This document shows positions 38,091 to 58,284 of a stretch of DNA of 64,000 nt, piece by piece. How positions within the stretch are numbered: the stretch's first letter is position 1; each line of letters opens with the position of its first letter. Below the pieces are notes generated by a model that saw only the letters and a program-made list of their open reading frames with translations, made no database searches and was not told the DNA's origin. The DNA lies in the NCBI RefSeq assembly GCF_000013385.1, contig NC_007760.1, forward strand, positions 3,756,001 to 3,820,000. Reading direction: 5' to 3'. This DNA is from Anaeromyxobacter dehalogenans 2CP-C. GTDB lineage: Bacteria; Myxococcota; Myxococcia; Myxococcales; Anaeromyxobacteraceae. The translations under genes and the position numbers were made by a program.

Positions 38091-38147
38091 GTGCCAACCC
38101 GCCCAGATCCTAGGTTTGCCTGCTCCGCACCGTCAAGGACGCCCCGC

Positions 38148-44100: not shown

Positions 44101-47100
44101 GCCGCGGCCGCGCGGGCCGGCTCGCCGTGCGCGAGCCGCGCGATGCGCCGCTGGTACTCGGCCCGGGCGACCGGCTCGCGGGCGCGGTCGGCGTGCTCCT
44201 CCAGCAGCGCGACCAGCTCGTCGCCCAGGCCCGCGGCCTGCGCGTGGCGCACCGCCAGCTCGAGCGACTCGGGCGCGTCCGGGTCCGCCGCGAGCGCGCG
44301 CGACGCGGCCAGGAACGCCATCTCGGCGTTGCGCAGCGGTCCGCCGTACACGTCGGCCACGCGCCGCAGCAGCGCCGCGCGCCGGGGCGGCTCGGTCTCG
44401 TTCGCGGCCCGCGCCTCCAGCGTCTCCACCACCTTGCCGTGCTCGCCCTCGGCCGCGTACACCGGCTCGAGCAGCAGCGCCGCCTCGAGCGCGGCCGGCC
44501 CGGTGCCGCGCGCCAGCTCCTCCAGCGCCGACAGCGCGGCCGGGTGGCGGGGCACGCGGTGCAGCACCTCGCGGTAGGCGACCAGCGCGCCCTCCGCGTC
44601 CGCCAGCCGCTGGTGGCGGATGCGGCCGAGCCGGAAGCGCAGCTCGGCGGCCTCGGCGACGAAGTTGGGCTGCCGGTCGGCCAGCGCCACCTCGCGGTCG
44701 AGGACCTGGACCAGCTCCTCCCAGCGCTCGGCCGCGCCGAGGAGCCGCCCGAGCAGCCGGAGCGCCTGCGGATCCTCCGGGTCCACCGACAGGATCTTCC
44801 GGTACGCGTCCACCGCGCCTTCGCGATCCGAGAGCTGCTCAGCCATGATCTTCGCCACCTCGAGCAGGAGTTCCTTGCGCGCCGCCGCCGCGGGGGCGAC
44901 CTCCGCGAGCCGCGTGAGCGTCCCGGCCAGCTCGCGGTGCGCGCCCATGCGGCGGTAGACGCGCGCCAGCGCGCCGAGCGTCTCGGGAGACGGCGCCGCC
45001 GCGGCCACCTCCTCGTACTGCCGGGCCGCCTCGGCGAGGTCGCCGAGCCGGTCGGCGCACACGGCCGCCAGCCGCCGCCGCGCCTCCAGCGCCGCCCGCG
45101 CCGGCAGGCCGGCCGCGAGCGCCACCCGCAGCGCCTCCGCCAGCTCGGCCCAGGCGCCGGTCGCCGCCGCGAGCCGCTCCAGGTCCGCCCGCGCCGCCGG
45201 CGCGTCGCGGCCCGCCCGCGCCGCGTCGGCCAGCTCGCGCACCCGCGCCTCGAACGCGCGGCGCCGGTCGCCCAGCCGCTCGTGCAGCGCGGCGATCTCG
45301 GCGAGCAGCGGCGCGCGCTCGGCCTCGTCGGCGCCCTCCAGCCGGACCTCGAGCAGCGCCGCGAGCCGGCCGGCGTCGCCCGCCGTGCGCAGGACGTCCT
45401 CCAGGAGCCGCGCCGCGCCCTCGCGCGCGTCCGGGCGCTTCAGCAGGCGCTCCAGGCCCGCCACCGCCTCCGGCTCGCGCGGGCGCTCGGCGAGCACCTC
45501 CGCGTAGCCCTCCACCGGCCGCCGCGGATCCGGGTCGGCCTCCAGGCAGGCCGCGCGCCGCAGCAGCGCCGCCACCCTGCGGTCCGGGTCGGCCCCGCTC
45601 GCCCGGGCGAGCGCCTCCAGCACCTGCAGCAGCTCCGCGGTCGCCGCCGCGGGCTCCGCGCCGGGCGCCCGCTCCAGCACGCGCGCGAGCCCCTCCAGCG
45701 CCTCCACCCGGTCCGGCGCCTCGCCGAGCACCGCGCGGTAGGCCTCGGCCGCGACCGACGCGTCGCCCAGCTGGTCCGCCACCACCGCCGCGTGCAGCAG
45801 GTGGCCGGCGCGCTCCTCGCCCTCCGCCAGCGCGGCGCGGCGGCGCGCGACCTCGAGGATCTCGCGCGCCGAGCGCGCCGCCTCGTGCAGCGCCGCGAGC
45901 GCCTCCAGCGCCTCGGCGTCGTCCGGCGCGAGCGCCAGCACCGCGTTCCACGCGTCCACCGCGCCCTGGCCGCCGGCGCGCGCCTCGCGCAGCCGCGCCG
46001 CCTGGCGGAGCAGGCCGAGCCGCTCCTCCGGGCCGGCCGCGGCCGCCGCCTGCTCGTAGACGTCGGGCAGCTCGTCCTCGGAGCCGGTCTCGCGCGCCAG
46101 GCGCGCCAGGTCCTCCTCGGCGCCGGCGCGGGACGGCCCGCCCTCGGCGAACGCGCGGCAGGCCGCCACCCAGGCCAGGCCCGGCTCGCCCAGGTCGCGC
46201 TCCAGGATCGCGCGCAGCTCCGCGTGCAGCCGGGCGCGCTCGCCCAGGTCCTCCACCGCCGCGAGCCGCGCCTCGCGCGCCGCCACCCGCCGGGCGTGCT
46301 CGCCGCCCTCGCGCAGCGCGGCGTCCGCGGCGTCGAGCGCCTCGCGCCCCACCGCGCCCGGGACCGCGGCCAGCTCGGCGAGCGCGTCGCGCACGTCCGC
46401 GCGCGACGGATCCCGCCGCAGCAGCTCGGCGTGCAGCGCCAGCGCGCCGGCCGGATCGCCCAGGCGGAAGCGCCGCAGCTCGGCCAGCCGGGCGGCCGCG
46501 TCCGCGTCGAACGCGCGGGCCAGCCGGCGCTCCAGCAGCGCGGCGAGCGCCTCGGGCCGGTCGAGGCGCTGGTAGAGCCGCTCCAGCGCCGCCGTCGCCT
46601 CGGCGTCCTCGGGCGCGAGCGCCGCCACCTCGGCCCAAGCCGCCGCCGCGCGCCCCGGGTCGCCGAGGCGCGACTCCGCCACCGCGGCCTCCTCGCGCAG
46701 CGCGTCCTCGCGCGCGGCCGGCGCGGCCTCGGGCATGGCGGCGAGCGCGGCGCAGACGTCGGCGAGCTCGCCCCAGCGCTCGCGGGCGCGGTGCAGGCGG
46801 CGCAGCGCGGCCAGCGCGTCGCGATCGCCCGGCGCCGCCGCGGCCACCTCGGCCCAGGCCGCCGCGGCGCGGTCGCGGTCCAGCCGGCGCTCGGCCAGCT
46901 CGGCGCGCTCGCGCAGGATCGCGAGGCGCCCGGACGCCGGCGCCGCGTCCACCAGCGCGTCGTGCACGCGGGCGCAGGCCTCCCACTCCTGGGCCTCGCC
47001 CGCCACGCGCCGCAGCTCGGCCCGCAGCTCCGCGTCCCCGGGCAGCTCCCGCGCGGCCGCCGCCAGGGCCGCGAACGCGAGCGACGCCTGCCCCAGCTCC

Positions 47101-50100
47101 TGCTCGGCCACGCGCGCGGCGGCGCGGTGCGCGGCGGCGCGGCCGCCCGGCTCCGGGTGCGCCCGGGCCTCGGCCTCCAGCGCCCGCAGCCGGCGCCGCG
47201 GATCCGCCTGCCCGGCCAGCGCGCGCGCGGCCATCACCACCGCCGCCGGATCCTCCGCCCCGAGCTGCTCCTCCAGCGCCGCGAGCGCGGCCGCGTCGCC
47301 CGGCGAGGCCCGCAGCGCGGCGGTCAGCCGCTCGACCGCGGCGCGCGCGTCGCCCATCCCGGCGCGGATGCGCGCGCTCTCCAGCGCGGCCCGGGACGCC
47401 TCGGCCGGCTCCGCCGCGGCCGCCGACAGCTCGCCGAGCGCGTCGGCCCGCCCGGCCTCGTCCCCGGCGGCGCCGAGCGCGCCGGCGAGCCGCGCCAGCA
47501 GGCGCGCGCGCTGCTCCGGGCCGCAGCGGGCCAGCGCCGCGCGGCAGACCTCGGCGGCCGCGGCGGGGTCGCCGAGCCGCTCCTCCAGCACCTCGGCACG
47601 CTGCGCGAGCAGCGCCACCTGCTCCGCGCCGGACGCCGCCTCGGCGCGCTGCGCCAGCAGGCGATCCGCGTCGGCCCAGCGCTCGGACGCGAGCGCGGCG
47701 CGGGTGAGCCCGGCCAGCACCGCCGGGTCGCCGGGCCGCAGCTCCAGCGCGCGCCGGAGCTGCGCGGCCGCGTCGTCGAACGCGCCCAGGTCCTCCTCCG
47801 CGGTGGCGGCGGCGCGGATCCGGAGCGCCGCCTCCTCCTCGGGCCGCCCGGCCAGCCGGCCCGCCACCTCGACCAGCAGCGCGAACAGCTCGCGGTGGGC
47901 GCCGACCTCGCGGGCCAGCGCCTCGCAGCGCGCGCGGGCCTCGGCGTGGTCGGGGCAGGCCCGCAGCGCCGCGGCCGCGGCGGAGAGCGCGCCGCGGCGG
48001 TCGCCCAGGCGCTCGGCCCGCGCGGCGGACGCGTCGAGCAGGTGGCGGGCGCGCTCGCGCGGGTCGGCGGTGGCGGGCAGCTCCTTCGCCACCCGCTCCA
48101 GCATGGCCGCCTGCCGCGCCGCGTCCCCGGCGGCGGCGTGCGCGCGCGCCAGGGCCTGCGCCACGCGCAGCGGCTCCGCGCCGCGCGCCAGCAGCCGCTC
48201 CAGGAGCGCGACCGCCTCGGCCCGCTGCGACGGGGAGAGGCCGCCGGCCTCGACCACGGCGAGCGCCACCCCGGCGGCGTCGGCGTGGCGCCCGAGCGGC
48301 TCGGCCAGCGCCTCGGCGCGCGCCAGCTCGATCGCGGCGCGCTCGGCGGGGCCCCGCGCGCGGGCCGCGAGCCGCGCCAGGATCGCGATCCGCTCCTCGG
48401 CCGCGCCCGCGCCGCCCTGCGCCTCGAGCGCGGCGTGCAGGCCCCACAGCGCCTCCTCGTCCTCGGGACCCTCGGCGAGCACCCCGCGCCACGCGGCCCC
48501 GGCGCGGTCCGGCTCGCCGGCCTCGGCCCACAGCCGCGCCAGCTTCGCCCCGAGCGCGCGCCGCTCGTCGCCGGCGGCGTGCTCGCGCCGCGCCTCGAGC
48601 TCGCGGGCCAGCTCCTGCTGCTGCCCCGCCCGCGCCAGGCACGACTCCAGCGCCGCGCGGGCGCCGCGATCCTCGGGGTCCACCTCGACCAGCGCGCGCC
48701 AGGCCCGGACCGCCTCCTCCGGCTGGCCCAGGTCGCGGTCCAGGATCTCGGCCACCCGCCGCAGCAGCGTCTTGCGCGCCTTGAGGTCGCCGTTCGCGGC
48801 GGCGGCGGCGGCGCGGTAGGCGCGCGCCAGCTCGGCGAACGCGTCCGCGCGGGCGGCGGCGCCCTCCATGGCCTTGCGGGTGGCGGCCCGGGACGGATCG
48901 AGCGCGAGCGCGCCCGCCAGCGTGCGCAGCGCGTCGCGCGGCCGCCCCACGTGCTCCTGCTGGATCTCGGCGAGCCGCTCGAGCAGCCGGACCCGCTCCC
49001 CCGGCGAGCGCTCGCGGCGCGCGGACAGCTCCAGCACGCGCGCGAGCGGCTGCCACTCGCCGGCCTCGGCGAGCAGCGGCGCCAGCGCGACGGCGGCGGC
49101 GGCGTGGCCCGGGTCGGCGCGCAGCGCCGCCTCGAGGTGGCGGCGGGCGCGGGCGGGGTCGCCCAGCTTCTCGCGCGCGAGGGCGGCGGCGCGCACGCGC
49201 AGCGGCGCGTGGGCGGGCTTCGCCGGCGCGGCGGCGAGGTGGCGCTCCAGCACCTCGAGCGCCTCCGCGAACCGGCCCGCGTCGAACTCGTGCTCGAAGG
49301 CCTGGAGGGCGGCGGTCTCGCAGGCCGGGTCGAGGTCCAGCGCGCGGCGCAGCGCCGCCAGCGCGGACTCCGCGTCCCCGAAGCGCACCAGGTCCACCCG
49401 CGCCATCTCGAGGTGGAGGGCCACCTGCGCGGCGCGGTCCCGCGTCTGGGCCGCGAGGCGGGCCAGCGCGTCGGCGTGGCCGCGGTGGTCGCCGCGCTCC
49501 GCCAGCACGCGCTCCAGCAGCTCCAGCGCCGCCGGAGCCCCCGGCGCGAGCGCCCAGGCCCGCTCGATCCGCTCCACCGCGCGGCCCGCGCCCTCCGGAT
49601 CGTAGGCGGCGTGGATCTGGGCGAGCCGGAGCTGGAGCGCCGCCGCGGTGCGCCGGTCGGACGCGCGCGTCGCCTCCGCCTCCACCCGGCCGGCCTCCTC
49701 GCGCCAGGCGCGCGGGAAGCCGCGCAGCCGCTCGCGCGCGGCGGCCGCGCCGGGCGCGGAGCGGTCGAGCGCGAGCGCGTCGATGAGCGCGTCGGTCGCG
49801 AGCGCGTGGTCGAGCGGCTCGTCCACCAGCGCGGTGCCCAGCCGCGCGTACTCGGCGGCGAGCGCGCGCGGCTCGGCGCCGGCGTCGCGCGCGCCGTCGA
49901 GCAGCCGCTTCGCCTGCGCGAAGCGGCGGAGCGCGCCGAAGCACTCCAGCGCGCGGGCGCGCGCCTCCTCCAGCGACGGGTCGAGCCGGTGCGCGCGCGC
50001 GTAGAGCAGCGCGGCCCGGTCCCGCCGTCCGAGCCGCTCCTCCTGGACCTTCGCAAGCCGGAGCGTCACGGCCGCGGCGGCGACCGGCTCAGCGGTGGCG

Positions 50101-50462
50101 GTGGCCTCGCGCTCCAGCGCGGCGGCGATCCCGGCCCAGTCGCCGCGCTCCTCGAGGAGCTCCACCAGCGCGCGAAGCGCGACGGGGTGCGCCGGCTCGA
50201 GCTGGAGGAGCTGGCGGTACAGGTCCTCCGCGCGGGCCACGTTGCGCAGCTTCCGGTGCGCGAGCGTGGCGGCCTCGGCGAGGAGCGGCCCCGGTCCGGG
50301 CGCGTGGCGCGCGCGCCCCTCGTACAGGGCGATCAGCTCCTCCCAGCGCGCGTCGCGCTCGTAAAGTCCCACGAGCGCGTGAAACGCCTCGTCGTCGCCG
50401 GGGGCCGCCTCGAGCGACTCGACGTGGGATCGGATCTGCTCGTCCAGGGAGGGTGCGCTCAA
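38148..50462 (-). CDS. gltI: Giant TPR-repeat gliding motility protein GltI (AgmK)
   Basis: A 4,104-residue protein made of roughly fifty TPR-like helical repeats, with recurring blocks such as ALxALExLYExxxRWxELAxVLxR and RLGDPAxAAxAYRxALxxDPxxxxA. The last ~380 residues (from about VHLLGATDGEEVQVVARLRKF) are non-repetitive and end SEEYATLREKLGLSCVVPA. Size, position directly before gltJ and repeat content match GltI/AgmK of Myxococcus (about 3,800 residues). There is no signal peptide, so it is probably cytoplasmic, a scaffold for the motility complex. The start is a TTG without a visible Shine-Dalgarno; a promoter at 50515-50544 lies 50 bases upstream. The antisense strand is also open for almost the whole length, a composition effect. 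Confidence 0.92.
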   Translation of the reverse strand: MSAPSLDEQIRSHVESLEAAPGDDEAFHALVGLYERDARWEELIALYEGRARHAPGPGPLLAEAATLAHRKLRNVARAEDLYRQLLQLEPAHPVALRALVELLEERGDWAGIAAALEREATATAEPVAAAAVTLRLAKVQEERLGRRDRAALLYARAHRLDPSLEEARARALECFGALRRFAQAKRLLDGARDAGAEPRALAAEYARLGTALVDEPLDHALATDALIDALALDRSAPGAAAARERLRGFPRAWREEAGRVEAEATRASDRRTAAALQLRLAQIHAAYDPEGAGRAVERIERAWALAPGAPAALELLERVLAERGDHRGHADALARLAAQTRDRAAQVALHLEMARVDLVRFGDAESALAALRRALDLDPACETAALQAFEHEFDAGRFAEALEVLERHLAAAPAKPAHAPLRVRAAALAREKLGDPARARRHLEAALRADPGHAAAAVALAPLLAEAGEWQPLARVLELSARRERSPGERVRLLERLAEIQQEHVGRPRDALRTLAGALALDPSRAATRKAMEGAAARADAFAELARAYRAAAAAANGDLKARKTLLRRVAEILDRDLGQPEEAVRAWRALVEVDPEDRGARAALESCLARAGQQQELARELEARREHAAGDERRALGAKLARLWAEAGEPDRAGAAWRGVLAEGPEDEEALWGLHAALEAQGGAGAAEERIAILARLAARARGPAERAAIELARAEALAEPLGRHADAAGVALAVVEAGGLSPSQRAEAVALLERLLARGAEPLRVAQALARAHAAAGDAARQAAMLERVAKELPATADPRERARHLLDASAARAERLGDRRGALSAAAAALRACPDHAEARARCEALAREVGAHRELFALLVEVAGRLAGRPEEEAALRIRAAATAEEDLGAFDDAAAQLRRALELRPGDPAVLAGLTRAALASERWADADRLLAQRAEAASGAEQVALLAQRAEVLEERLGDPAAAAEVCRAALARCGPEQRARLLARLAGALGAAGDEAGRADALGELSAAAAEPAEASRAALESARIRAGMGDARAAVERLTAALRASPGDAAALAALEEQLGAEDPAAVVMAARALAGQADPRRRLRALEAEARAHPEPGGRAAAHRAAARVAEQELGQASLAFAALAAAARELPGDAELRAELRRVAGEAQEWEACARVHDALVDAAPASGRLAILRERAELAERRLDRDRAAAAWAEVAAAAPGDRDALAALRRLHRARERWGELADVCAALAAMPEAAPAAREDALREEAAVAESRLGDPGRAAAAWAEVAALAPEDAEATAALERLYQRLDRPEALAALLERRLARAFDADAAARLAELRRFRLGDPAGALALHAELLRRDPSRADVRDALAELAAVPGAVGREALDAADAALREGGEHARRVAAREARLAAVEDLGERARLHAELRAILERDLGEPGLAWVAACRAFAEGGPSRAGAEEDLARLARETGSEDELPDVYEQAAAAAGPEERLGLLRQAARLREARAGGQGAVDAWNAVLALAPDDAEALEALAALHEAARSAREILEVARRRAALAEGEERAGHLLHAAVVADQLGDASVAAEAYRAVLGEAPDRVEALEGLARVLERAPGAEPAAATAELLQVLEALARASGADPDRRVAALLRRAACLEADPDPRRPVEGYAEVLAERPREPEAVAGLERLLKRPDAREGAARLLEDVLRTAGDAGRLAALLEVRLEGADEAERAPLLAEIAALHERLGDRRRAFEARVRELADAARAGRDAPAARADLERLAAATGAWAELAEALRVALAAGLPARAALEARRRLAAVCADRLGDLAEAARQYEEVAAAAPSPETLGALARVYRRMGAHRELAGTLTRLAEVAPAAAARKELLLEVAKIMAEQLSDREGAVDAYRKILSVDPEDPQALRLLGRLLGAAERWEELVQVLDREVALADRQPNFVAEAAELRFRLGRIRHQRLADAEGALVAYREVLHRVPRHPAALSALEELARGTGPAALEAALLLEPVYAAEGEHGKVVETLEARAANETEPPRRAALLRRVADVYGGPLRNAEMAFLAASRALAADPDAPESLELAVRHAQAAGLGDELVALLEEHADRAREPVARAEYQRRIARLAHGEPARAAAAWQKVLDLAPDDREALVGLIDALEAGADPEALAQALRRGLAVEELPEGRAHLLRRLAAVQDERLGDAAGAIQSLKRLLELSPDDREALARLDRLCVKAERWVDLGDVLAREIAAAAEAGDANVLGVLRQRLAELKEHRLLDREGALELYEEVLRARPDHPEALARLEAMLQKDPGNARAAVALERAYAAAGDPLRQAAVLEQRAGERPDPQERKALYLALAELREKGLGDPSLAFLALCKAFREDPADAAVRARMEALAARSGHEEELAAIYEDELDRLAPADTAQVALRLGALYEEHLAEPARAAQFLRRAAALDPAAAPAALPALERIYQKLESWPDLADALSSLASSAQGAERVQLLFRLGQLCEERLAAPDRAAEAYEAAVAADPRHVPSLRALEALYEGAGRREDLFQNLAAQRAAAQEPAARERVLARMAALAAELGRLDEAVALWKELLGIRPRHEAALAALEDLYERLERWQDLAQHLRLRVSATVDRREIARLNDKLGNVLGTKLGDAAQAVQSYKAVLESDPRNRRALEALRDIHAAQGDQDALVSVYRRLVPLQEDAAGVKRVRLELADVLLRAGQKREAVEQAKLAFDIEPHTADDLVRVEEIFRQGGAAQDGVRAAEARAALLAAEGGPAEAVPAWLAVAELWRAQKRNDAAAAALDKVLELDPANRTAYDQLRALHEAAGNWRALARVCDLFAPHLPDPAEKLALLKEVAGVHEKRLGQKEMSFLAWCRALAEGPGDAEALAEAERLAAETEAFDELAAVLEQVAEDAKGMVRARLLLRLGKVRDERLDVADEAEAAYRKALEADPASPDALDALTQLFKRRGRVRDLVITLEQKLEAAAGLEEKKATLLEMARIYDGELHDVEEAVSALRRVLELDGADPAALEALSELLRREQRWADLAGVLARARDLSASDQARIAYQLQIASLHENEIGDDEAAVEGYRTVLGLDDRNAEALAGLERLYTKLDRFAELNRVYERLIALTQDPRELVRVLSRSAAIHDEKLRDPRSAIEKNEAVLRIDGANAVAIKNLERLYRDEALWDRLISVMQHHVSLVQDRREQVALEVAIGEIWWKELQRVDRAEAMLSHALQLDPDSRQAVSALGRLYENSGNWNLALDMLRREARVAGGSRDAVDLQVRMGAIFEDMLMDVAGAKEAYGRALQLDPGNLPALRALKGIAERERDRDRYLELLVDEARYATDVQEKTELYTEAARVYQEERDDRESAVRYYEEALKRTPGHLDAARPLSDIYVAQARWADAERVLAVIVGVLDSAGDARELCRQCYRQGYVAEKLGRLDKALASYRRAYELDATYLPALEGLGNLLVRREEWDEALRIFTAVIIHHRDGLTDLEVVETHWQIGEIAAKLGQLDRAANAFRKALEIDTNHEPSRRSLVRVLEAVGDWEGAVDQRQRLLPLLEGMARFDDFVAIGEACRDKLQDPYQAIDAFLGAARIDPTSLPVTEALLGLYRETRQGQKAADVLGQMVARPEVQADPVRAARLHLARAEVLRDEVKDENAALAELERALDRNPRLVQAFAAIEDTLTRGKRWQELEQAYLRMIQRLPKTPDVAQARLALWKTVGELYRSVLRNDDGARLAYQVVAKADPDDAVSLELYADLAARKPGEEAEAVAAYRQLLRGGSRTQKPAAALVKLHASRREYDQAYSAAQVLVHLLGATDGEEVQVVARLRKFAREQASRPLDDALWALLLHERVKGPLADIMTLLAVHARPLFLQRDKDLGLNPKKDELDVQGSMLFFANMFKYVERTLGFKGLRLFRKSGAAAKLAIVPTDPAGLVASDELFEEAPKKELWFAIGKAMAFARPELYLARLMPHDQLDLVFQAACSVGTSRFVVTADPHLVEKLKRELERTLPEGVRKNTLKLLARSYCEVQHPGDVRSYLDGAELTSNRAGALLAGDLEVVRRAAGAEKPQVSKLREETRLRDLATFCVSEEYATLREKLGLSCVVPA

Positions 50463-50826
50463 GGTGGCTTCGCGGGGGAGTGAGGAACCGGAAAAAAGCG
50501 CCTGACGACGCGGAAGTATAGGGCGCTGTTCGCAGGAGGGTCAACGTTGTCCCGGCCGGATTCCCTTGCCCTTACGGGCATTTGACTACATTGCCCCCGG
50601 TCGCGGGCGGGGTGGCAGGAACCCGGGTGACCCAGGGCGAGGGGTCGTGGTGACCGTCCCTCGGCGGGACGGCTTTCGGGGCGCCGCGGCGCGTTTCCCG
50701 GCCAGATCGCGCGCTCGGCGGTGGCCGGCGCGACCGCGCAGGAGCGGCGATCGCGGGCGGCCGGCGCGCGTCTCGGGGCCGCGCGCGCGCGGCGCGGATA
50801 GCGCCCGATAGCAGCCCGCGATCGCC
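50463..50826. other. 364-base intergenic region before gltI
   Basis: Holds the gltI promoter in its left part. The remainder, 50545-50826, separates gltI from the end of the polyphosphate-type operon. I see no gene, tRNA or hairpin terminator there beyond generally GC-rich sequence. Confidence 0.55.
50515..50544 (-). promoter_or_regulatory. Sigma-70-type promoter for gltI-gltJ
   Basis: On the minus strand TTGACC (50539-50544) and TATACT (50515-50520) at 18-base spacing. The predicted start near 50508 gives a ~46-base leader before the TTG start of gltI. It makes gltI-gltJ a transcription unit of its own, separate from gltD-H. Confidence 0.7.
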
Positions 50827-51357
50827 TCACGGCGACTTCCGCGACGCGTCGGCGAGCCGCGGCGGCGCCACCTCCGCGGCCGGCGCGCCGGCGGCGCGCG
50901 CGGCGGCGGCCGCGGGCGCGTCCGCGTCCGGCGCCTCGCCGGCCGGGAGCAGGTCGAGCGCGGCCAGCACCGCCGACGCCGCGAGCCCGGCGGTGAGCGC
51001 GAGCCCCAGCGTCCCGTGACCGCACGCCATGCCCAGGCCGATGGTGAGGAACAGCACCGCCGCGTCGCGCGGGTCCTTCAGCCCGGAGCGGAACCGGACG
51101 AAGCTGCCCAGGCCCACCAGGCCGAACGCCTTCGCCACGCTGTCGCCGATCACCATGGTGATGATCGCCGCCGCGGCGCACAGCAGGATCTGCGCCTGCG
51201 CCATCTCCGGCCTCGGCAGCCGCCGGCCCATGAGCAGCCGCCAGGGGCGGAACCCGAGCGCCACGCCCACCACCAGCGCCGCCCCGATGCGCGGGAGCAC
51301 CGTGCCGAGCGGCAGCGTGTGCAGGTCGATCCCGGGGGGGAACGTCACGGGGTGCAT
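50827..51357 (-). CDS. DUF4956 family membrane protein
   Basis: A 176-residue inner-membrane protein with four predicted helices (IGAALVVGVALGFRPW, AQILLCAAAAIITMVIGD, AAVLFLTIGLGMACG, GLALTAGLAASAVLAALDLL) and the family signature GLVGLGSFVRFRSGLKDPRDAAVLF between the second and third. The Ala-rich C-terminus is cytoplasmic-looking and disordered. DUF4956 proteins are recurrent neighbours of VTC-domain polyphosphate polymerases and CotH kinases, as here; a transport or assembly role in polyphosphate metabolism is inferred from that. The ATG at 51357 follows GGAGG and overlaps the upstream kinase gene by 13 bases, so it is the last gene of a coupled operon. Confidence 0.88.
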   Translation of the reverse strand: MHPVTFPPGIDLHTLPLGTVLPRIGAALVVGVALGFRPWRLLMGRRLPRPEMAQAQILLCAAAAIITMVIGDSVAKAFGLVGLGSFVRFRSGLKDPRDAAVLFLTIGLGMACGHGTLGLALTAGLAASAVLAALDLLPAGEAPDADAPAAAAARAAGAPAAEVAPPRLADASRKSP

Positions 51358-53030
51358 GACTCCTCCACCGCGGCGGGCAGGCCCGGCGCGGGCGCGGCCA
51401 GCGCGAGCACCGCGTGCGCGTTCCGCAGCACGGGCAGGCTCGCCGGGGCGGCCCGGAGCGCGGCCGCGACGATCTCCCGGCCGGGCGCGGTCGCGGCGAG
51501 GTGCCGGAGCGACGAGACGGCGGCGGCGGGCCAGCGGGCGACGCCCTCGGCCCGCAGCGCCCAGGCCCGCGGGTGGTCCATCCCGTCCACCGCGTCGAGC
51601 GCCTCCTTGGTGAAGGCGAGCGCGCGCTCGCGCAGGGCCCAGGTCCACGGCGCGGCGTTGCCCGCCAGCGTGCGGAGCACGCGCTTCGGCGCGAGCGGGA
51701 ACAGCCGCTCGCGCAGCGCGCGCGCCGGGCCGCTCTCCACCCCGGCCGTCCCGCGCAGCGCCGCGAGGCGATCGTGCGCGGCGAGCGCGCTCCGCATCGC
51801 GTCGGCGCGCGCGCCGTCCACGCCGGCCAGGCTGCGCCCCACCGCCTCCCACAGGCCGCGCCCGATCCCGTCCGCCCGCAGCGCCCAGGCGCGCTCGGTG
51901 CCGAGCCCGGCCAGCCCGCGCAGCACGCCCTCCAGCTCGCCGCGCTCCAGCGCCTCGGCGCGGAGCGCCCACGCGTCCGCCCCGTCCGCCGCCACCAGCC
52001 CGGCCACCGCCGGCCCCGGCGCGCGCGCCAGCAGCGCGGCCCGGAGCCGCATCGCCTCCGGCGACGCGTCCGCGCCCAGGCCCGCGGCCACGTCGGCCGG
52101 GGCCCGGCCCGCCAGCGCCCACCGGAGCGCGTGCGACTCCGGGTCCGACAGGCCCTCGAGCGCGCGCGCCACCACCGCCGGGCACCGCCCGGCGAGCGCC
52201 GTCCGCCGCGCGTGGGCAGCGCGGCCGGGGATGCCGGCCAGCAGGTGCGCCGCGAGCGCGGGCTCCCGCGCCGCCAGCGCGTCCACCGCCGCCTCGAACC
52301 GCGCGGCGATCCCGGCGGGCCCGGCCGGCGCGGGCGGGCGCGCGGACCGCGGCGCGGGCGCGGGGGGCCGGCGCGGGGCGCGGCCTCCGGCGGCGCGGGC
52401 CGCGATCGCGTCCGCGACCTCGTCCGCGAGCGCCTCGAGCGCCCTCCCCTCGTTCGCGACCCGGAGCCACGAGGCGGGCGCGGCGGCGGCCTCGGCGGCG
52501 AGGTGCTCGCGGACGCGCACCTGGAGGCCGTGCCCGGCGAGCCCCTTGCGCGAGCCCGGCTCGTCGGCGCGGCCCTCCAGGATCTTCCCCACCCGCTTGC
52601 GCAGCCGCGCCAGGTCGGGGTCCACGTCCACCAGCACGGCGAGATCCGGCCAGGTGCCGCCCGAGGCGGCGCGCACCGCCGCCTCGACCTCGGCGCGCGG
52701 CAGGCCGCGGCCGGCCACGGCCAGGGCCAGGATCGAGTGCAGGCTCCGGTCGGCCACGCACAGCGCGCCGCGCGCCAGCGCGGGCCGCACCACCTCCTCG
52801 AGCTGCTGCGCCTCGCGGGCGAGGTTCAGGCACAGCTCGGCGCGCGGGGAGAGCTCGAGCAGGCGCGGGTCGCGCGTCAGCTCGCGGACGCGGCGGGCCG
52901 CGGCGGTGGCGAGGACCCCGCGCTCGCGCGCGTGGACCACCTCGCGCCCGCCGCGCCGCAGGCGCTCGCACACCAGGTTGGAGAGCGCGGTCTTGCCGCT
53001 GCCGTCGATGCCTTCGAAGGAGACGAGCAT
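51345..53030 (-). CDS. Thymidylate-kinase-like protein fused to C-terminal helical repeats
   Basis: A 561-residue fusion. Residues 1-~200 are a P-loop nucleotide kinase of the thymidylate-kinase family: Walker A GIDGSGKT (7-14), the Arg-containing ARERG loop, CVADRSLHSILALAV (where dTMP kinases have DRYxxS) and VLVDVDPDLARLRKR. A Pro/Ala linker leads to ~300 residues of repeats of about 32-36 residues with an ALR(A/W)-A-A pattern (e.g. AWALRAEALERGELEGVLRGLAG, AWALRADGIGRGLWEAVGRSLAG, AWALRAEGVARWPAAAVSSLRHL), an alpha-solenoid. Ordinary dTMP kinase is ~210 residues and unfused. It lies between VTC and DUF4956 genes with 4-base and overlapping junctions. PPK2 polyphosphate kinases share this P-loop superfamily, but PPK2 motifs are not seen. 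Confidence 0.85.
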   Translation of the reverse strand: MLVSFEGIDGSGKTALSNLVCERLRRGGREVVHARERGVLATAAARRVRELTRDPRLLELSPRAELCLNLAREAQQLEEVVRPALARGALCVADRSLHSILALAVAGRGLPRAEVEAAVRAASGGTWPDLAVLVDVDPDLARLRKRVGKILEGRADEPGSRKGLAGHGLQVRVREHLAAEAAAAPASWLRVANEGRALEALADEVADAIAARAAGGRAPRRPPAPAPRSARPPAPAGPAGIAARFEAAVDALAAREPALAAHLLAGIPGRAAHARRTALAGRCPAVVARALEGLSDPESHALRWALAGRAPADVAAGLGADASPEAMRLRAALLARAPGPAVAGLVAADGADAWALRAEALERGELEGVLRGLAGLGTERAWALRADGIGRGLWEAVGRSLAGVDGARADAMRSALAAHDRLAALRGTAGVESGPARALRERLFPLAPKRVLRTLAGNAAPWTWALRERALAFTKEALDAVDGMDHPRAWALRAEGVARWPAAAVSSLRHLAATAPGREIVAAALRAAPASLPVLRNAHAVLALAAPAPGLPAAVEESCTP

Positions 53031-53034
53031 GGGG

Positions 53035-53706
53035 TCAGGCCCTGCGCGTGCGCGCCGGCGCGGCGCGCGCGAACGCCTCGGCGAGCTTGCTGTACGGCTG
53101 CGCCCGCTCGGTCACGAGCGCGACCAGCCAGCGCGGCGGCGCGCCCGCCCCGAGCTTCAGCTCGAGGACGGAGCGCGGCTCGGCGCCGAGCGGCGGGGGC
53201 AGCCGGTCCGGCCACGGCGGCGCGTCCGGGTCGAGCAGCCGCCAGCCGGCCGGGTGGAACCGCAGGCCGTCGTCGAGCGTGACGCGCCATCCGTCGCACG
53301 GCTGCCACACCCGGCGCCGGTACGAGGTCGCGACGAGCGGCGCGAGCGGGCCCGGCACCGGCAGCCGCGCCAGCGCGCCCGCCAGCGCCGTGCGCGGGAC
53401 CCAGGTGCGGTCCTTGGTGGTGACCCCTCCCCGCTCGCGCTTCAGCTCCAGCACCACGCGCCCGGGCCGGCCCGAGCGGTCCGGCCGGTAGGCCTTGGCC
53501 CGCACCTTGACGCAGTCGCCGGGCGCCTCGAGCGCTCGCAGCGCCAGCGGCGCGCCGGGCGCGTCGAAGTAGACCGTGGCCACCCGGGTCGTGGGCGCTC
53601 CCCCGGCGCCGAGCCGCGCCGCGACGTCCCGCGCCTCGTCCGGCGCGAGCAGCACCTTGTGCTCGCGCCGCAGCAGCGTCACCGGCCCCTCCGCGTAGGG
53701 CACCAC
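53035..53706 (-). CDS. VTC-domain (polyphosphate polymerase-like) protein
   Basis: A 223-residue single-domain protein of the VTC/CYTH-like tunnel fold. The basic and acidic tunnel motifs are in order: RREHKVLL, TVYFDAPG, CVKVRAKAYRP, VVLELKRERGGVTTKDR, SYRRRVW, WRVTLDDGLRF, VLELKLG and the terminal PYSKLAEAF. In yeast Vtc4 such residues bind ATP, metal and the growing polyphosphate chain; the bacterial single-domain members are less studied. There is no membrane span, so it probably works with the DUF4956 membrane protein downstream. The start is the first of two tandem GTG codons, one base after the porin gene stop, with no room for other starts. Confidence 0.9.
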   Translation of the reverse strand: MVPYAEGPVTLLRREHKVLLAPDEARDVAARLGAGGAPTTRVATVYFDAPGAPLALRALEAPGDCVKVRAKAYRPDRSGRPGRVVLELKRERGGVTTKDRTWVPRTALAGALARLPVPGPLAPLVATSYRRRVWQPCDGWRVTLDDGLRFHPAGWRLLDPDAPPWPDRLPPPLGAEPRSVLELKLGAGAPPRWLVALVTERAQPYSKLAEAFARAAPARTRRA

Positions 53707-53707
53707 G

Positions 53708-54910
53708 CTAGAACCTCGTCGCGAGCTGGACGGCGATCGCGTTGGCCGGCGCCTTCTCCCCCGGGCGGCGCGCCCGCTCTCCCTGCACCTTCAGCTTGAG
53801 CCCTTCCCCGAAGCCGAGCACCGCCCCGGCCACGGCGGACGAGCCCGTCCCCTGCACGGGCGCGCGGAGGCGCAGCGCCTCCACCCCCGCCATCGGCGTC
53901 ACGCGGAGCCGCTTCCCCACCGGGATGGTGTACTCGACCAGGCCGAGACCGGCGGTGAACGTCCCCTGCTCGATGTGGCCCGCGAGCGCCTCCAGGCTCA
54001 CCGCCAGGGGCCCCGCGTCGAGCGCGGCGAACGCGGAGCCCGCCTCGCGCCGGGGCGCGTCCGGGGCGGAGCGCCCGGCGCGGTAGCCGGCGGCGCCGAG
54101 CTCGATGGCCCCGGCGAGCCGGACCGCGGCGCGGGCCACGTAGTCCTGCGGCGGCTTCTCGTCGCCGTTGGGCGTGCCCTGGAACACGCCGGCGGACACC
54201 TCCAGCGCGCCGTCCCACGGGCGGACCGCGCCCATCGCGCCGACGCGCCGCCCGCCCAGCTCGTTCCGGTCCACGAGGTAGTCGTTCACCACGCCGCGGC
54301 CGATGCGCGGCAGCTTCCACGCGGAGGCGGTCTCGCGCTCGAGGAACGGCGGCTTGAACCGGCCGGCGGTGAGCCGCGTCGAGGAGGGTCCGTCGAGGCG
54401 CACGAAGGCGTCCTTGAGCGGCTTCGTGTCCGCGACGTCCGCCTCGATGACCGTGAGCAGTCCCGGCATGCTCCCGCGCACCTCGATGCGGGCGCGGTCG
54501 AGCGCCACGTCGCGCTTCCAGTCGTCGCGCGCGTCCGCGGCGCCGCCGACGAACACCTGCCCGCCCACCTCGATCTGCAGCCCCTCGCGGCGGGCGCGGA
54601 TCGGCTCCGCCACCGGGCTCGGCGGCGGCGCGATCGGCGCCGGCGGCGCGGACCTCGGCGCGGGCGCCGGCGCGGCAGGCAGCGGCGCGGCGCGCACCAC
54701 CTCGACGCGGGCCGTCCGCGCCGCCGCGTCGGCGGCCGGCGCGGCGAGCGCCTTCCCGTCCGCCTGGACCACGGCCGGTACGGCGTCCGCCTTCCCCCCC
54801 GCCTGCGCCGCGGCCGGCGCGGCGTCCGCCTCCGCCGCGAGCGCGGCGCCAGGGGTGGTGAGCAGGAGCAGCAACGGGAGCGCACGGCGCGAGGGTCGGT
54901 CTGCGAGCAC
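53708..54910 (-). CDS. Phosphate-selective porin (OprO/OprP-like) barrel
   Basis: A 400-residue outer-membrane porin. From the GTG at 54910 it has a signal peptide (RRALPLLLLLTTPGAALAAEA), then an Ala/Pro-rich periplasmic stretch of ~85 residues. A barrel follows, starting GLQIEVGGQVFVGGAADARDDW and including TAGRFKPPFLERETASAW and RRVGAMGAVRPWDGALEVSAGVFQG, which are typical of the porin O/P family, and ending in Phe (IAVQLATRF). Frames open to 55060 would place the hydrophobic signal internally, so I reject that longer start. Its place at the head of an operon with a VTC protein suggests phosphate or polyphosphate traffic across the outer membrane. Confidence 0.85.
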   Translation of the reverse strand: MLADRPSRRALPLLLLLTTPGAALAAEADAAPAAAQAGGKADAVPAVVQADGKALAAPAADAAARTARVEVVRAAPLPAAPAPAPRSAPPAPIAPPPSPVAEPIRARREGLQIEVGGQVFVGGAADARDDWKRDVALDRARIEVRGSMPGLLTVIEADVADTKPLKDAFVRLDGPSSTRLTAGRFKPPFLERETASAWKLPRIGRGVVNDYLVDRNELGGRRVGAMGAVRPWDGALEVSAGVFQGTPNGDEKPPQDYVARAAVRLAGAIELGAAGYRAGRSAPDAPRREAGSAFAALDAGPLAVSLEALAGHIEQGTFTAGLGLVEYTIPVGKRLRVTPMAGVEALRLRAPVQGTGSSAVAGAVLGFGEGLKLKVQGERARRPGEKAPANAIAVQLATRF

Positions 54911-55159
54911 GCCGGGCCGCGGTGCAACGGCGGTGCCCGCACATCCGCGCCCACGCTCCCCCGCCCCCAGGGCGCTCGCGCGTCGCGCACCGTGGAAGCG
55001 CGCTTCCCACTCGCGCCGCCGGATCGCCACGCGCTCGGCACGAGATCGCCGCGCGCGCACCCGCAGCGGGATGGCGCGGCGTCCCGCGCGTGTTCAGACG
55101 GGCTGACCCCCTCGATCGCCGTCCTGCGGCGCGCGCCCCCGGGCGCACGGAGACGCCAC

Positions 55160-56497
55160 ATGCGCTCACTCACCCGCCTGCTCCTCGCGCTCGCCGCGCT
55201 GCCCTTCGCGGCGTCCGCCGCGACCGTGACCCGCGGCCCCTTCCTCCAGCAGACCGGTCCGACGTCCGCGCTCGTGGTGGTGGACACCGACGCCGCCGCG
55301 ACGGTGGAGGCCATCGCGGACCTCCCCGGCGGCGGCACGGCGCGGGCCGGGAGCGACGGCACGCACCACCTGCTCCGCCTCGAGGGGCTGCCCGCGGCGA
55401 GCGCGGTCCCGTACCGGCTCACCGTGGACGGCGCCGAGCGGCCGGGCGGCACGCTCCACACGCCGGGCCGGCCGGACACCGCCGCGGGCCGCGCCGCGAT
55501 CCTCGCGGTCATCGGCGACTACGGCACCGGCGATCCCGCCGAGATGAACCACATCGCGCGCATCCGGGAGGAGGGCGCGCAGGCGATCCTGACGGTGGGC
55601 GACAACGCCTACCCGGACGCCACCGCCGCCGACTTCCTCACCAAGCTGTTCCGCCCGATGGCGGCGCTCCTCGCGGACGTGACCATGTGGCCGGCGCTCG
55701 GCGACCACGAGTACCGGCAGGCGTGGGCGCAGCCGTACCTCGACGCGTTCGAGCTGCCCGAGGGACCCCAGGGCGAGCGCTACTACGCGTTCGACTGGGG
55801 CGACGTGCACGTCGTCGCGCTGGACTCGAACTGCATCGTGCCGATGGACGCGGCCACCGCCGGCTGCGACGCGAAGACCATGGTGGGCTGGCTCACGGCC
55901 GACCTCGCGGCCACCCGCGCCCCGTGGAAGATCGTCCTCATCCACCGGCCGGTGGTCGCGACCGGCAAGTACGGCGTGTACCCGCAGATCCCCGCGGCGC
56001 TGCTCGGCGTGCTCGAGGGGGCCGGGGTGGACCTGGTGCTGCAGGGCCACAACCACCTCTACGAGCGGAGCTGGCCGACGCGGCAGGGGCAGCCGGTGCA
56101 GAAGGACTACGACCACCCCGCCGCGCCGGTGTACGTGACGAGCGGCGGCGCGGGCGGCTGGCTGTACGACTTCGCGCTCCCGGCCGAGCCGTGGACCGCC
56201 TACCGCGAGAAGATCGACCAGCACCTCCGGCTCACGCTCGAGGGCGGCACGCTGAAGGTGGACTCGATCCGCGGCGACGGGGTGATCCACGACACCTTCA
56301 CGATCGTGAAGGACGTCCCGCCGCTGCCCGCCCAGCCGCCCGGCGGAGGCGACGGCGGCACGGGCGGCGCCCCGGAGGCGCCGCCGCCGAACGGCGCGGT
56401 GGCGGTCGGTTGCCAGGCCGGCGCCGGCTCGGGCTGGGCGCTGCTCGCGCCGCTCGCCGTCGTCGCCGCGGCGGTGCTCCGCCGGCGTCGCCGCTAG
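55160..56497 (+). CDS. Purple-acid-phosphatase-like metallophosphoesterase with MYXO-CTERM-like tail
   Basis: A 445-residue exported enzyme. A signal peptide (MRSLTRLLLALAALPFAASA) is followed by a Fn3-like purple-acid-phosphatase N-domain (VTRGPFLQQTGPTSALVVVDT). The metallophosphatase domain has the full motif series GDYGTGD, GDNAYPD, GDHEY, HRP and GHNHLYER. A Pro/Gly linker leads to a C-terminal GCQAGAGSGWALLAPLAVVAAAVLRRRRR: one Cys, a membrane span and an Arg cluster, the MYXO-CTERM sorting pattern that anchors proteins at the myxobacterial surface. It diverges from the phosphate porin, 249 bases away, supporting a role in releasing phosphate from organic phosphates outside the cell. 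Confidence 0.9.
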   Translation: MRSLTRLLLALAALPFAASAATVTRGPFLQQTGPTSALVVVDTDAAATVEAIADLPGGGTARAGSDGTHHLLRLEGLPAASAVPYRLTVDGAERPGGTLHTPGRPDTAAGRAAILAVIGDYGTGDPAEMNHIARIREEGAQAILTVGDNAYPDATAADFLTKLFRPMAALLADVTMWPALGDHEYRQAWAQPYLDAFELPEGPQGERYYAFDWGDVHVVALDSNCIVPMDAATAGCDAKTMVGWLTADLAATRAPWKIVLIHRPVVATGKYGVYPQIPAALLGVLEGAGVDLVLQGHNHLYERSWPTRQGQPVQKDYDHPAAPVYVTSGGAGGWLYDFALPAEPWTAYREKIDQHLRLTLEGGTLKVDSIRGDGVIHDTFTIVKDVPPLPAQPPGGGDGGTGGAPEAPPPNGAVAVGCQAGAGSGWALLAPLAVVAAAVLRRRRR

Positions 56498-56610
56498 CCC
56501 GCCCGCACCTCCGCCGCCTGCCCGCGCGCCCGGTGACGCCGGGCAGGCACGGTGGGTGACCCCCCGCGCGCCCGCTTCCCGGCGCGCGGGTCGCTGCGCT
56601 GCATGTGGTC

Positions 56611-58284
56611 ATGCGACGCACGTGCGCGGCCGCCCGCCTGCTGATCCCCGTCCTCCTGCTCGCCTGCACCGGGGGCGCACCGCTCCCCGACGGCTCCCTC
56701 GGCGGCCAGCCGGGCGGTGGGGGGGGCGGCGGCGGGGGAGGAGGCGGCGGCGGTGGCCCCGGCGGCGTGGTGAACCCGGACGCCCCGCTCGCCGCGCCCG
56801 CCTGGCCTCCGCTGCAGACGAGCGTCGAGCCGTACGCGCTCGCGTTCGACGACGCGACCGCGGCGATCGTCTACACGATGTGGAGCAAGGAGTACGCGCC
56901 CGGCCGGTTCCACTACCACGGCGCCTGGTGGGACGTGACGCTCCGGCAGCGCGGCGACGGCTCGCGCGAGCACCCCAAGCACAGCTGGAAGGTGCGCCGC
57001 CCCAAGGACGCGCCGCTCGACGGCGAGCGCACGCGGAACCTGCTCGCCGAGTGGCCCGACGGCGGGTACCTGTCCGATCCGTTCTCCTACGGGCTCATGA
57101 AGGGCGCCGGCGTGCCCACGCCGCGGGCGCAGTTCGTGACGCTCGACGTGAACGGCGAGCACCAGGGCGTGTACGTCGAGCTCGAGGAGCCCGACGAGAA
57201 GCACTTCCTCCTGGAGAACGGGATCGACTCGAACGCGAACGTCTACCGCTGCGGGCTGCGCGACTGCGAGCTGAAGCTCACCCCGCCCGCCCACTACCAG
57301 GGGCCGTGGGAGAAGAAGACGAACTCGAGCGAGCCCTCCGACGACCTCGACGCGTTCCTGCTCGGCCTGAACCGGACGCCCGAGGGCGAGATCGAGGCGT
57401 GGCTGGAGCGGAACGTGGACCTGCCGCGCTTCTTCCGCTTCTACGCGGTGGGGATCCTCATCAGCCTCTCGGGCATCGACGACTCCGGCAGCTACCTGGT
57501 GCACGACCGCGTGCGCGACAAGTGGCTGTGGGTGCCGTGGGACCTCAACAACGCGAAGCTGGTGTTCTGGCGGGACAACGCGGTGGAGTGGGGCGTGCCG
57601 TTCCGCTACGCCATCCCGTTCTACACGCTGTACGACGCGGGGACGCTCGGCGTCGCCGCCGGCAAGGAGGCGCGCTACGGCGGCGCGCACCCGCCGTTCG
57701 TGGTCCTGTTCCAGCGCATCTGGGACCGGCCGGCGCTGCGGAACGCCATCCTCGACGAGGTGGAGGCGATGCTCGACGGCCCGTTCGCCGAGGCCGAGAC
57801 GTCGCCCCGCATCGACGGGCTGCACGCGCTCATCGCCGGGCTGCTCCCGGCGGACCCCTGGGTGGACCCGGCGCACGCGGACGCGTCGGTGCAGGTGCTG
57901 AAGGACTACGTCCGGCGCCGGACCGGGTTCCTGCGCGAGCAGATCGCGCTCGAGCGCCACCGCGGCGAGGGCGGCCTGGTCGTGAACGCCGTCGCGCCGG
58001 ACGCGATCGAGCTCTACAACCGCGAGGACGCGCCGCGCGACCTGGGGGGCCTCGCCCTCACCGGAGACCTCCGCCAGCGGCTCGCGACGCCGCTGCCCGC
58101 CGGCACGGTGGTGCCGCCGCACGGGACGCTGCGGCTCCCGTTCCCGGTGGCGGCCGAGGGCGGCGAGGTGGGCATCTTCGACGTCGCCACGCAGCTGCCG
58201 GTGGACGCGGTCTACTACGGGCCGCCCGGCGGGCGGACCTACGCGCGCACGCCGGACGGCGCGGAGACCTGGGCCTGGCGGTGA
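56611..58284 (+). CDS. CotH kinase family lipoprotein
   Basis: A 557-residue lipoprotein. The signal ends with lipobox LLLAC (Cys near residue 18), followed by a ~15-residue polyglycine linker and the CotH kinase domain. The domain shows FHYHGAWWDVTLRQRG, KHSWKVRR, NLLAEWPDGGYLSDPFSYGLMK, VNGEHQGVYVELEEPDEKHFLLEN and VPWDLNNAKLVFW, matching the spore-coat CotH protein-kinase fold. A C-terminal lamin-tail-like beta domain (AIELYNREDAPRDLGGLALTGD) ends the protein. CotH genes commonly accompany VTC and DUF4956 genes, as here. Start is ATG 56611 (GTG 56605 is in frame two codons earlier); no clear ribosome site. The polyglycine region contains a G8 tract at 56719-56726. Confidence 0.9.
   Translation: MRRTCAAARLLIPVLLLACTGGAPLPDGSLGGQPGGGGGGGGGGGGGGGPGGVVNPDAPLAAPAWPPLQTSVEPYALAFDDATAAIVYTMWSKEYAPGRFHYHGAWWDVTLRQRGDGSREHPKHSWKVRRPKDAPLDGERTRNLLAEWPDGGYLSDPFSYGLMKGAGVPTPRAQFVTLDVNGEHQGVYVELEEPDEKHFLLENGIDSNANVYRCGLRDCELKLTPPAHYQGPWEKKTNSSEPSDDLDAFLLGLNRTPEGEIEAWLERNVDLPRFFRFYAVGILISLSGIDDSGSYLVHDRVRDKWLWVPWDLNNAKLVFWRDNAVEWGVPFRYAIPFYTLYDAGTLGVAAGKEARYGGAHPPFVVLFQRIWDRPALRNAILDEVEAMLDGPFAEAETSPRIDGLHALIAGLLPADPWVDPAHADASVQVLKDYVRRRTGFLREQIALERHRGEGGLVVNAVAPDAIELYNREDAPRDLGGLALTGDLRQRLATPLPAGTVVPPHGTLRLPFPVAAEGGEVGIFDVATQLPVDAVYYGPPGGRTYARTPDGAETWAWR

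Follow-up and report, generated by a model that had tools for sequence, protein, structure and literature searches.

Organization of the locus

We analyzed a window of 64,000 nucleotides from Anaeromyxobacter dehalogenans 2CP-C, whose genome (G000) is a single contig of 5,013,479 bases in which the window spans G000:C1:3756001-3820000. Toward one end of the window lie four closely packed genes on the minus strand, with a giant TPR gene downstream of them, and two divergent genes on the plus strand. The features, in window positions, are:

50515..50544, minus strand: sigma-70-like promoter upstream of the giant TPR gene (10 of 12 matches; 0.0 expected)
50827..51357, minus strand: DUF4956 membrane protein, 176 aa (Pfam DUF4956, 3e-9)
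51345..53030, minus strand: thymidylate-kinase-like/solenoid fusion, 561 aa (Pfam Thymidylate_kin, AlphaFold2)
51393..52310, minus strand: alpha-solenoid of the fusion, residues 241-546, ~11 two-helix repeats of 27 residues
52386..53030, minus strand: P-loop kinase domain of the fusion, residues 1-215 (TMK fold, thymine-recognition motifs altered)
53035..53706, minus strand: VTC domain protein, 223 aa (Pfam VTC; polymerase-type triphosphate-tunnel residues conserved)
53708..54910, minus strand: secreted outer-membrane beta-barrel, distant Porin_O_P relative, C-terminal Phe
55160..56497, plus strand: purple-acid-phosphatase-like metallophosphoesterase with a MYXO-CTERM-like tail (metal-ligand motifs present)
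56605..58284, plus strand: CotH kinase-family lipoprotein with a lamin-tail-like C-terminal stretch (Pfam CotH)

A model's earlier annotation of this DNA from its letters alone (the sequence-only reading) had described a minus-strand operon of barrel, VTC, kinase/repeat fusion and DUF4956 genes with the phosphatase-like and CotH genes diverging from it. Our gene calls agree with it in the coordinates of the operon, in the positions of the two divergent genes and exactly in the spacing (1 and 4 bases between genes, then 13 bases of overlap). The start of the barrel gene is uncertain and may be the GTG at 54910 or that at 55060. All six genes have a coding-type GC3 of 0.97-0.99, and omega values of 0.12-0.35, obtained by comparing close relatives, indicate purifying selection on all of them.

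Since the giant TPR gene has a 10/12 promoter match of its own upstream, we consider this gene separate from the operon, and the promoter marks the downstream boundary of the latter. The TPR-like gene (38148-50462, minus strand) encodes ~4,100 residues and neighbors the block in all the Anaeromyxobacter loci that reach that far. An antisense open frame (37833-50483, plus strand) spans its full length and is probably an artefact of GC-rich codon bias.

Conservation of the gene set among myxobacteria

VTC was found in five of the nine sampled Anaeromyxobacter genomes and in none of the 15 other genomes of the family. The DUF4956, kinase-repeat, VTC and barrel block and the divergent phosphatase and CotH genes are syntenic in all five, with the sole exception of the phosphatase of A. 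terrae (G008). The order barrel-VTC-kinase-DUF4956 and the strand are kept in every complete main-type locus examined, which comprised those of the five genomes and of ~20 other named myxobacteria, M. xanthus included. The same order was intact in every locus whose contig reaches all four genes in a scan of 84,980 species; all 25 loci recovered look myxobacterial, the scan being a single peptide pattern that does not by itself prove absence outside the myxobacteria. A single-protein scan of genome contigs with VTC returned no relatives, probably because the protein is too divergent for back-translated patterns, and its relatives were obtained instead through alignments built from whole genomes. 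Searches of plasmids gave ordinary tmk matches or none.

The solenoid profile of the fusion matched 75 of 195 Myxococcota genomes, among them most of the sampled Myxococcaceae-type genomes, usually within a reading frame of ~570 residues, and about 22 genomes contain a second, more distant solenoid copy. Four Myxococcaceae loci (L084, L085, L086 and L089) carry a paralogous operon rearranged to CotH-VTC-barrel-kinase/solenoid-DUF4956, in which the VTC protein is divergent (59.5 bits to the Pfam model in L084), and one distant copy (L083) stands without partner genes. The sequence-only reading had called for a survey of co-occurrence and named scattering of the genes among relatives as the result that would speak against it; the four genes instead occur together far beyond chance. 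By genome comparison, we take them to be a real, conserved and co-inherited set that is predicted to function together.

We also made two observations on individual assemblies. The sequence BNCN01000003.1 (L104), titled Comamonas sp. KCTC 72670, equals contig 3 of the myxobacterial genome G125 in length, carries the full myxobacterial operon and probably belongs to a mislabelled or mixed assembly. In the G006 draft, the contig with the phosphatase gene and a 97%-identical CotH (L031, G006:C99) stops short of the operon, and neither VTC nor the fusion was found elsewhere in this draft, owing to either an assembly gap or a deletion.

In A. soli, A. terrae, a third Anaeromyxobacter species and nearly all the Myxococcaceae loci, the gene directly after DUF4956 encodes a lipoprotein-like product of ~170-270 residues (for example at L010:5417-6091 on the minus strand, L009:10922-11590 and L080:10447-11184). 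It is absent from the window, where no significant remnant was detected, and it was not found in G001; its product had no Pfam match (L080) and no NCBIfam match. We regard it as an ancestral fifth member of the set that is missing in the window. At one locus (L071:13527-17031), the place beyond the lipoprotein gene that holds the phosphatase in relatives is taken by transposase-like genes, which by eye are of IS66 and IstA/IstB type.

The association of CotH and the phosphatase with the set, as the sequence-only reading had it, extends past the window, and both recur beside the set in other lineages. CotH adjoins the main locus in Anaeromyxobacter and in a deltaproteobacterial MAG (L081/L114) and is a member of the paralogous operon; in most Myxococcaceae the surroundings of the main locus contain no CotH. 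The phosphatase gene lies on the operon strand, after the lipoprotein gene, in most Myxococcaceae loci, which means that the divergent layout is not the only form in which it is linked to the module. In A. terrae it is a remnant (L008:8391-8900) which keeps only the N-terminal domain, the catalytic domain having been deleted, and CotH and the operon are intact despite this decay; the phosphatase is therefore dispensable in that species.

The block had also been placed inside a gliding cluster. This is true of the window, where CglE is next door, but it does not hold as a conserved linkage. CglE is the neighbor of CotH in G000, G001 and G006 alone; other genes (an ABC-type ATPase and an MTA-phosphorylase-like gene, by eye) take its place in A. 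soli, A. terrae and the third species, and the Myxococcaceae loci adjoin Ser/Thr kinase and M61 peptidase genes. Because the neighborhood is not conserved, the gliding link is positional and not functional as far as tested, and we rejected the block as part of the gliding machine.

Properties of the encoded proteins

The VTC protein matched its Pfam family (PF09359) at 4e-12, with 46.5 bits against a cut-off of 23, and a profile of 18 VTC sequences matched yeast Vtc4 (3g3q) at 5.8e-11; a five-sequence profile missed yeast Vtc4. Window residues K67/R69, K89, K98, R131, R141, E182, K184 and K207 align with R264/R266, K281, K294, R361, R373, E426, K428 and K458 of Vtc4, the yeast residues being numbered by what we take to be the Vtc4 numbering. 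Across two paralogous operons, all 18 homologues keep the identical or an equivalent basic or acidic residue at these aligned tunnel positions. They have either Lys or Arg where Vtc4 has R264, and invariantly the Lys that corresponds to the catalytic K458 (window K207). K200 of Vtc4 falls outside the HMM alignment and R253 has no clear match in the window protein.

Enzymes of the tunnel fold vary in activity, and four positions that are basic in Vtc4 are glutamates in the hydrolases and cyclases of this fold (PMC4641920). Two of these four acidic-patch positions could be aligned, K98 and K184, and both are Lys in all 18 homologues, as in the polymerase, for which reason we favor a polymerase over a hydrolase. 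The first strand, which lies outside the HMM alignment to Vtc4, keeps a Glu (E15). Assignment of the window protein as a Vtc4-type polymerase tunnel protein, predicted to be cytosolic, is well supported by these alignments. VTC is the only Pfam domain in its 223 aa; an SPX domain and Vtc1-type membrane helices are absent, and therefore this is not a eukaryotic-type VTC complex. The gene is single-copy in its own genome.

The kinase-repeat fusion proposed by the sequence-only reading proved to be real. The Thymidylate_kin Pfam match (2e-17) covers residues 5-149 of 561, a 27-residue periodicity stands out against shuffled sequences (z=6.9), and the AlphaFold2 model (pLDDT 88, pTM 0.86) consists of a TMK domain and a regular two-helix solenoid. 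The TMK domain aligns with solved TMKs at a TM-score of 0.8-0.87 by target length. In canonical TMKs the REP, ADR and AYQ motifs read thymine and hold dTMP. In the fusion the P-loop EGIDGSGKT and the DR motif are intact and conserved, as in bacterial dTMP kinases (TIGR00041/PF02223), with which it also shares the fold; it differs from them in the extra solenoid and in its thymidylate-binding motifs, where REP is RE without Pro, ADR is ARE/ARD and AYQ is ALA/ALS. The window fusion scores 69.5 bits to the TIGR00041 dTMP-kinase equivalog, below the cut-off of 83.25. The genome has a canonical tmk at another site, G000:C1:1973896, with 138 bits versus 67 for the fusion, and we rejected the fusion as the main dTMP kinase of the cell. 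A PPK2 identity was likewise rejected; the fusion matches Thymidylate_kin and TMK structures.

The DUF4956 protein has 4-5 predicted membrane helices and the conserved motif FGLVGLG[SG]FVRFRSGLKDPRDAA, and the window copy is without the C-terminal soluble domain of its Myxococcaceae homologues. Profile and fold searches gave nothing significant and matched no solved structure (model pLDDT 68); a hit to a 7ytj chain, at E=4, was dismissed as noise.

The barrel had been called a phosphate-selective porin. Its outer-membrane barrel nature stands, and 12 of 13 homologues end in Phe, the remaining one having Phe one residue before the end. The family label does not, since the window protein reaches 15.1 bits to Porin_O_P (PF07396), below the Pfam cut-off of 20.9, though one barrel from a paralogous operon passes at 37.6 bits. 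Distant profile similarity to Porin_O_P in 7 of the 13 homologues is the likeness to the phosphate and polyphosphate porins OprO and OprP of Pseudomonas, from which the window barrel differs in falling under the cut-off and in giving no match to the solved OprP/OprO structures.

The phosphatase matched Metallophos (7e-8) and Metallophos_C, and its GDxx, GDN, G(N/D)HE and GHxH motifs are all present. The CotH protein matched its family at 2.5e-79 with 267.5 bits over positions 1-322 of the 322-position profile.

A candidate polyphosphate module of the envelope

We searched for other polyphosphate kinases in the complete genome of A. dehalogenans 2CP-C. With positive controls that worked, PPK1 was absent by two models (PF02503 and PF13090) and PPK2 by one (PF03976); PF13090 and PF03976 matches were absent also from G001, a single contig, and from the G006 draft. 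As both kinases are absent, VTC is the only recognized candidate for a polyphosphate polymerase in this genome. Six Anaeromyxobacter congeners have PPK1, and since A. soli, A. terrae and most Myxococcaceae contain PPK1 together with the operon, the operon does not simply stand in for PPK1. Our literature search found no report of polyphosphate in A. dehalogenans.

Sequence comparison establishes a co-inherited set whose members are predicted to be cytosolic, inner-membrane and outer-membrane proteins around a Vtc4-type tunnel domain. With moderate confidence, we propose that it is an envelope-spanning module of myxobacteria for polyphosphate-type synthesis, with possible export. Yeast VTC uses ATP of the cytosol for polyphosphate synthesis and translocates the product through a membrane (PMC4641920). 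By analogy, the bacterial VTC protein would make polyphosphate from ATP, and DUF4956 would take the role of the yeast Vtc1-type helices, holding the polymerase at the membrane and letting the chain leave the cytosol, after which the lipoprotein and the barrel could bring the polymer as far as the outer membrane or through it. The kinase-solenoid may be a cytosolic scaffold as well as a kinase for nucleotides or other phosphoryl acceptors that supports or regulates the polymerase, and the phosphatase and CotH would be accessory enzymes acting outside the cell. Export across the envelope, suggested by the predicted cell locations and the analogy with yeast VTC, is possible and is the weakest step.

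The sequence-only reading had proposed another route, in which the surface phosphatase frees phosphate that enters through a phosphate-selective porin and is polymerized by VTC; as we weighed it, the polymer would be a cytosolic store made when phosphate is scarce. Its further suggestion that the polymer might serve to modify surface proteins is conjecture. The phosphatase-like gene beside the operon in most Myxococcaceae and in Anaeromyxobacter, and a barrel of distant Porin_O_P likeness whose paralogous-operon relative scores above the cut-off, agree with such a route; however, the operon persists in A. terrae after deletion of the phosphatase catalytic domain, it encodes no inner-membrane phosphate transporter, a Pho-box search found no match, and the window barrel, at most a putative phosphate porin, neither reaches the Porin_O_P cut-off nor matches solved OprP/OprO. 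With the gliding context also unconserved, we did not retain this route and regard it as unlikely. Even less probable is that VTC is a triphosphatase or another tunnel enzyme in signalling or housekeeping, in a regulatory operon where the kinase fold is a pseudo-enzyme scaffold. The diversity of activities among tunnel enzymes (PMC4641920), E15 in a strand that does not align to Vtc4 and the altered thymine-recognition motifs of the kinase would fit, but the Lys at both alignable acidic-patch positions and the invariant K458 equivalent argue against a triphosphatase, as the intact P-loop and DR motif of the kinase do against a scaffold.

A third alternative, which we hold to be possible though doubtful, is that phosphoryl or nucleotidyl groups provided by VTC, the kinase and CotH are used to build or modify a surface polymer (an exopolysaccharide or coat) or surface proteins, and that phosphate storage is not involved. 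Known neighborhoods of VTC, DUF4956 and CotH, to which the sequence-only reading had rightly pointed, lend it some weight: in one report these families, with VTC as polyphosphate polymerase, are accessory genes beside the pel genes of Gram-positive bacteria, namely streptococci, clostridia and bifidobacteria (PMC7112168), and VTC/CotH loci are described for C. perfringens in another (PMC2879425). That CotH is a neighbor of the module in Anaeromyxobacter, at L081/L114 and within the paralogous operon points the same way; on the other hand, no glycosyltransferase was seen among the operon genes, and most Myxococcaceae have no CotH close to the main locus.

Returning to the polyphosphate module, its broadest form would be that A. 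dehalogenans has lost both PPK1 and PPK2 and relies on the VTC-type polymerase alone for polyphosphate, and that DUF4956 and the barrel, together with the lipoprotein in relatives, export the polymer to the surface, as a trans-envelope secretion system widespread in myxobacteria with the TMK-derived solenoid kinase as a dedicated part. We put this forward tentatively, as a minority expectation. Like the yeast Vtc4/VTC complex (PDB 3g3q, 7ytj and 8i6v), the module has a VTC tunnel domain in which catalytic residues and basic residues of the polymerase type are conserved, and a membrane partner encoded next to it; it differs in having no SPX domain or Vtc1-type (DUF202) helices, in its DUF4956 partner and in the outer-membrane parts and kinase of a bacterial operon. 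The Gram-positive Pel-locus and C. perfringens genes (PMC7112168, PMC2879425) bring together the same families, whereas the TMK-solenoid, the outer-membrane barrel and the lipoprotein of the relatives are joined to them here and are not described in the available portions of those sources. A limited literature search found neither the four-gene set with the TMK-solenoid nor the lipoprotein, the paralogous operon or the PPK-free background, and, while bacterial VTC is annotated as polyphosphate polymerase, it found no test of one.

A species with a complete genome that has VTC and lacks PPK1 and PPK2 offers a natural clean background, in which VTC would be the prime suspect if polyphosphate is present. 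The conserved module also names the joint partners, DUF4956, the barrel, the lipoprotein and the TMK-solenoid, in M. xanthus too. Finally, database names will mislead, because some fusion homologues pass the NCBI curated cut-off for dTMP kinase, as one from Myxococcaceae does in TIGR00041 at 97.9 bits, and the canonical dTMP kinase is another gene, at least in the genome studied here.
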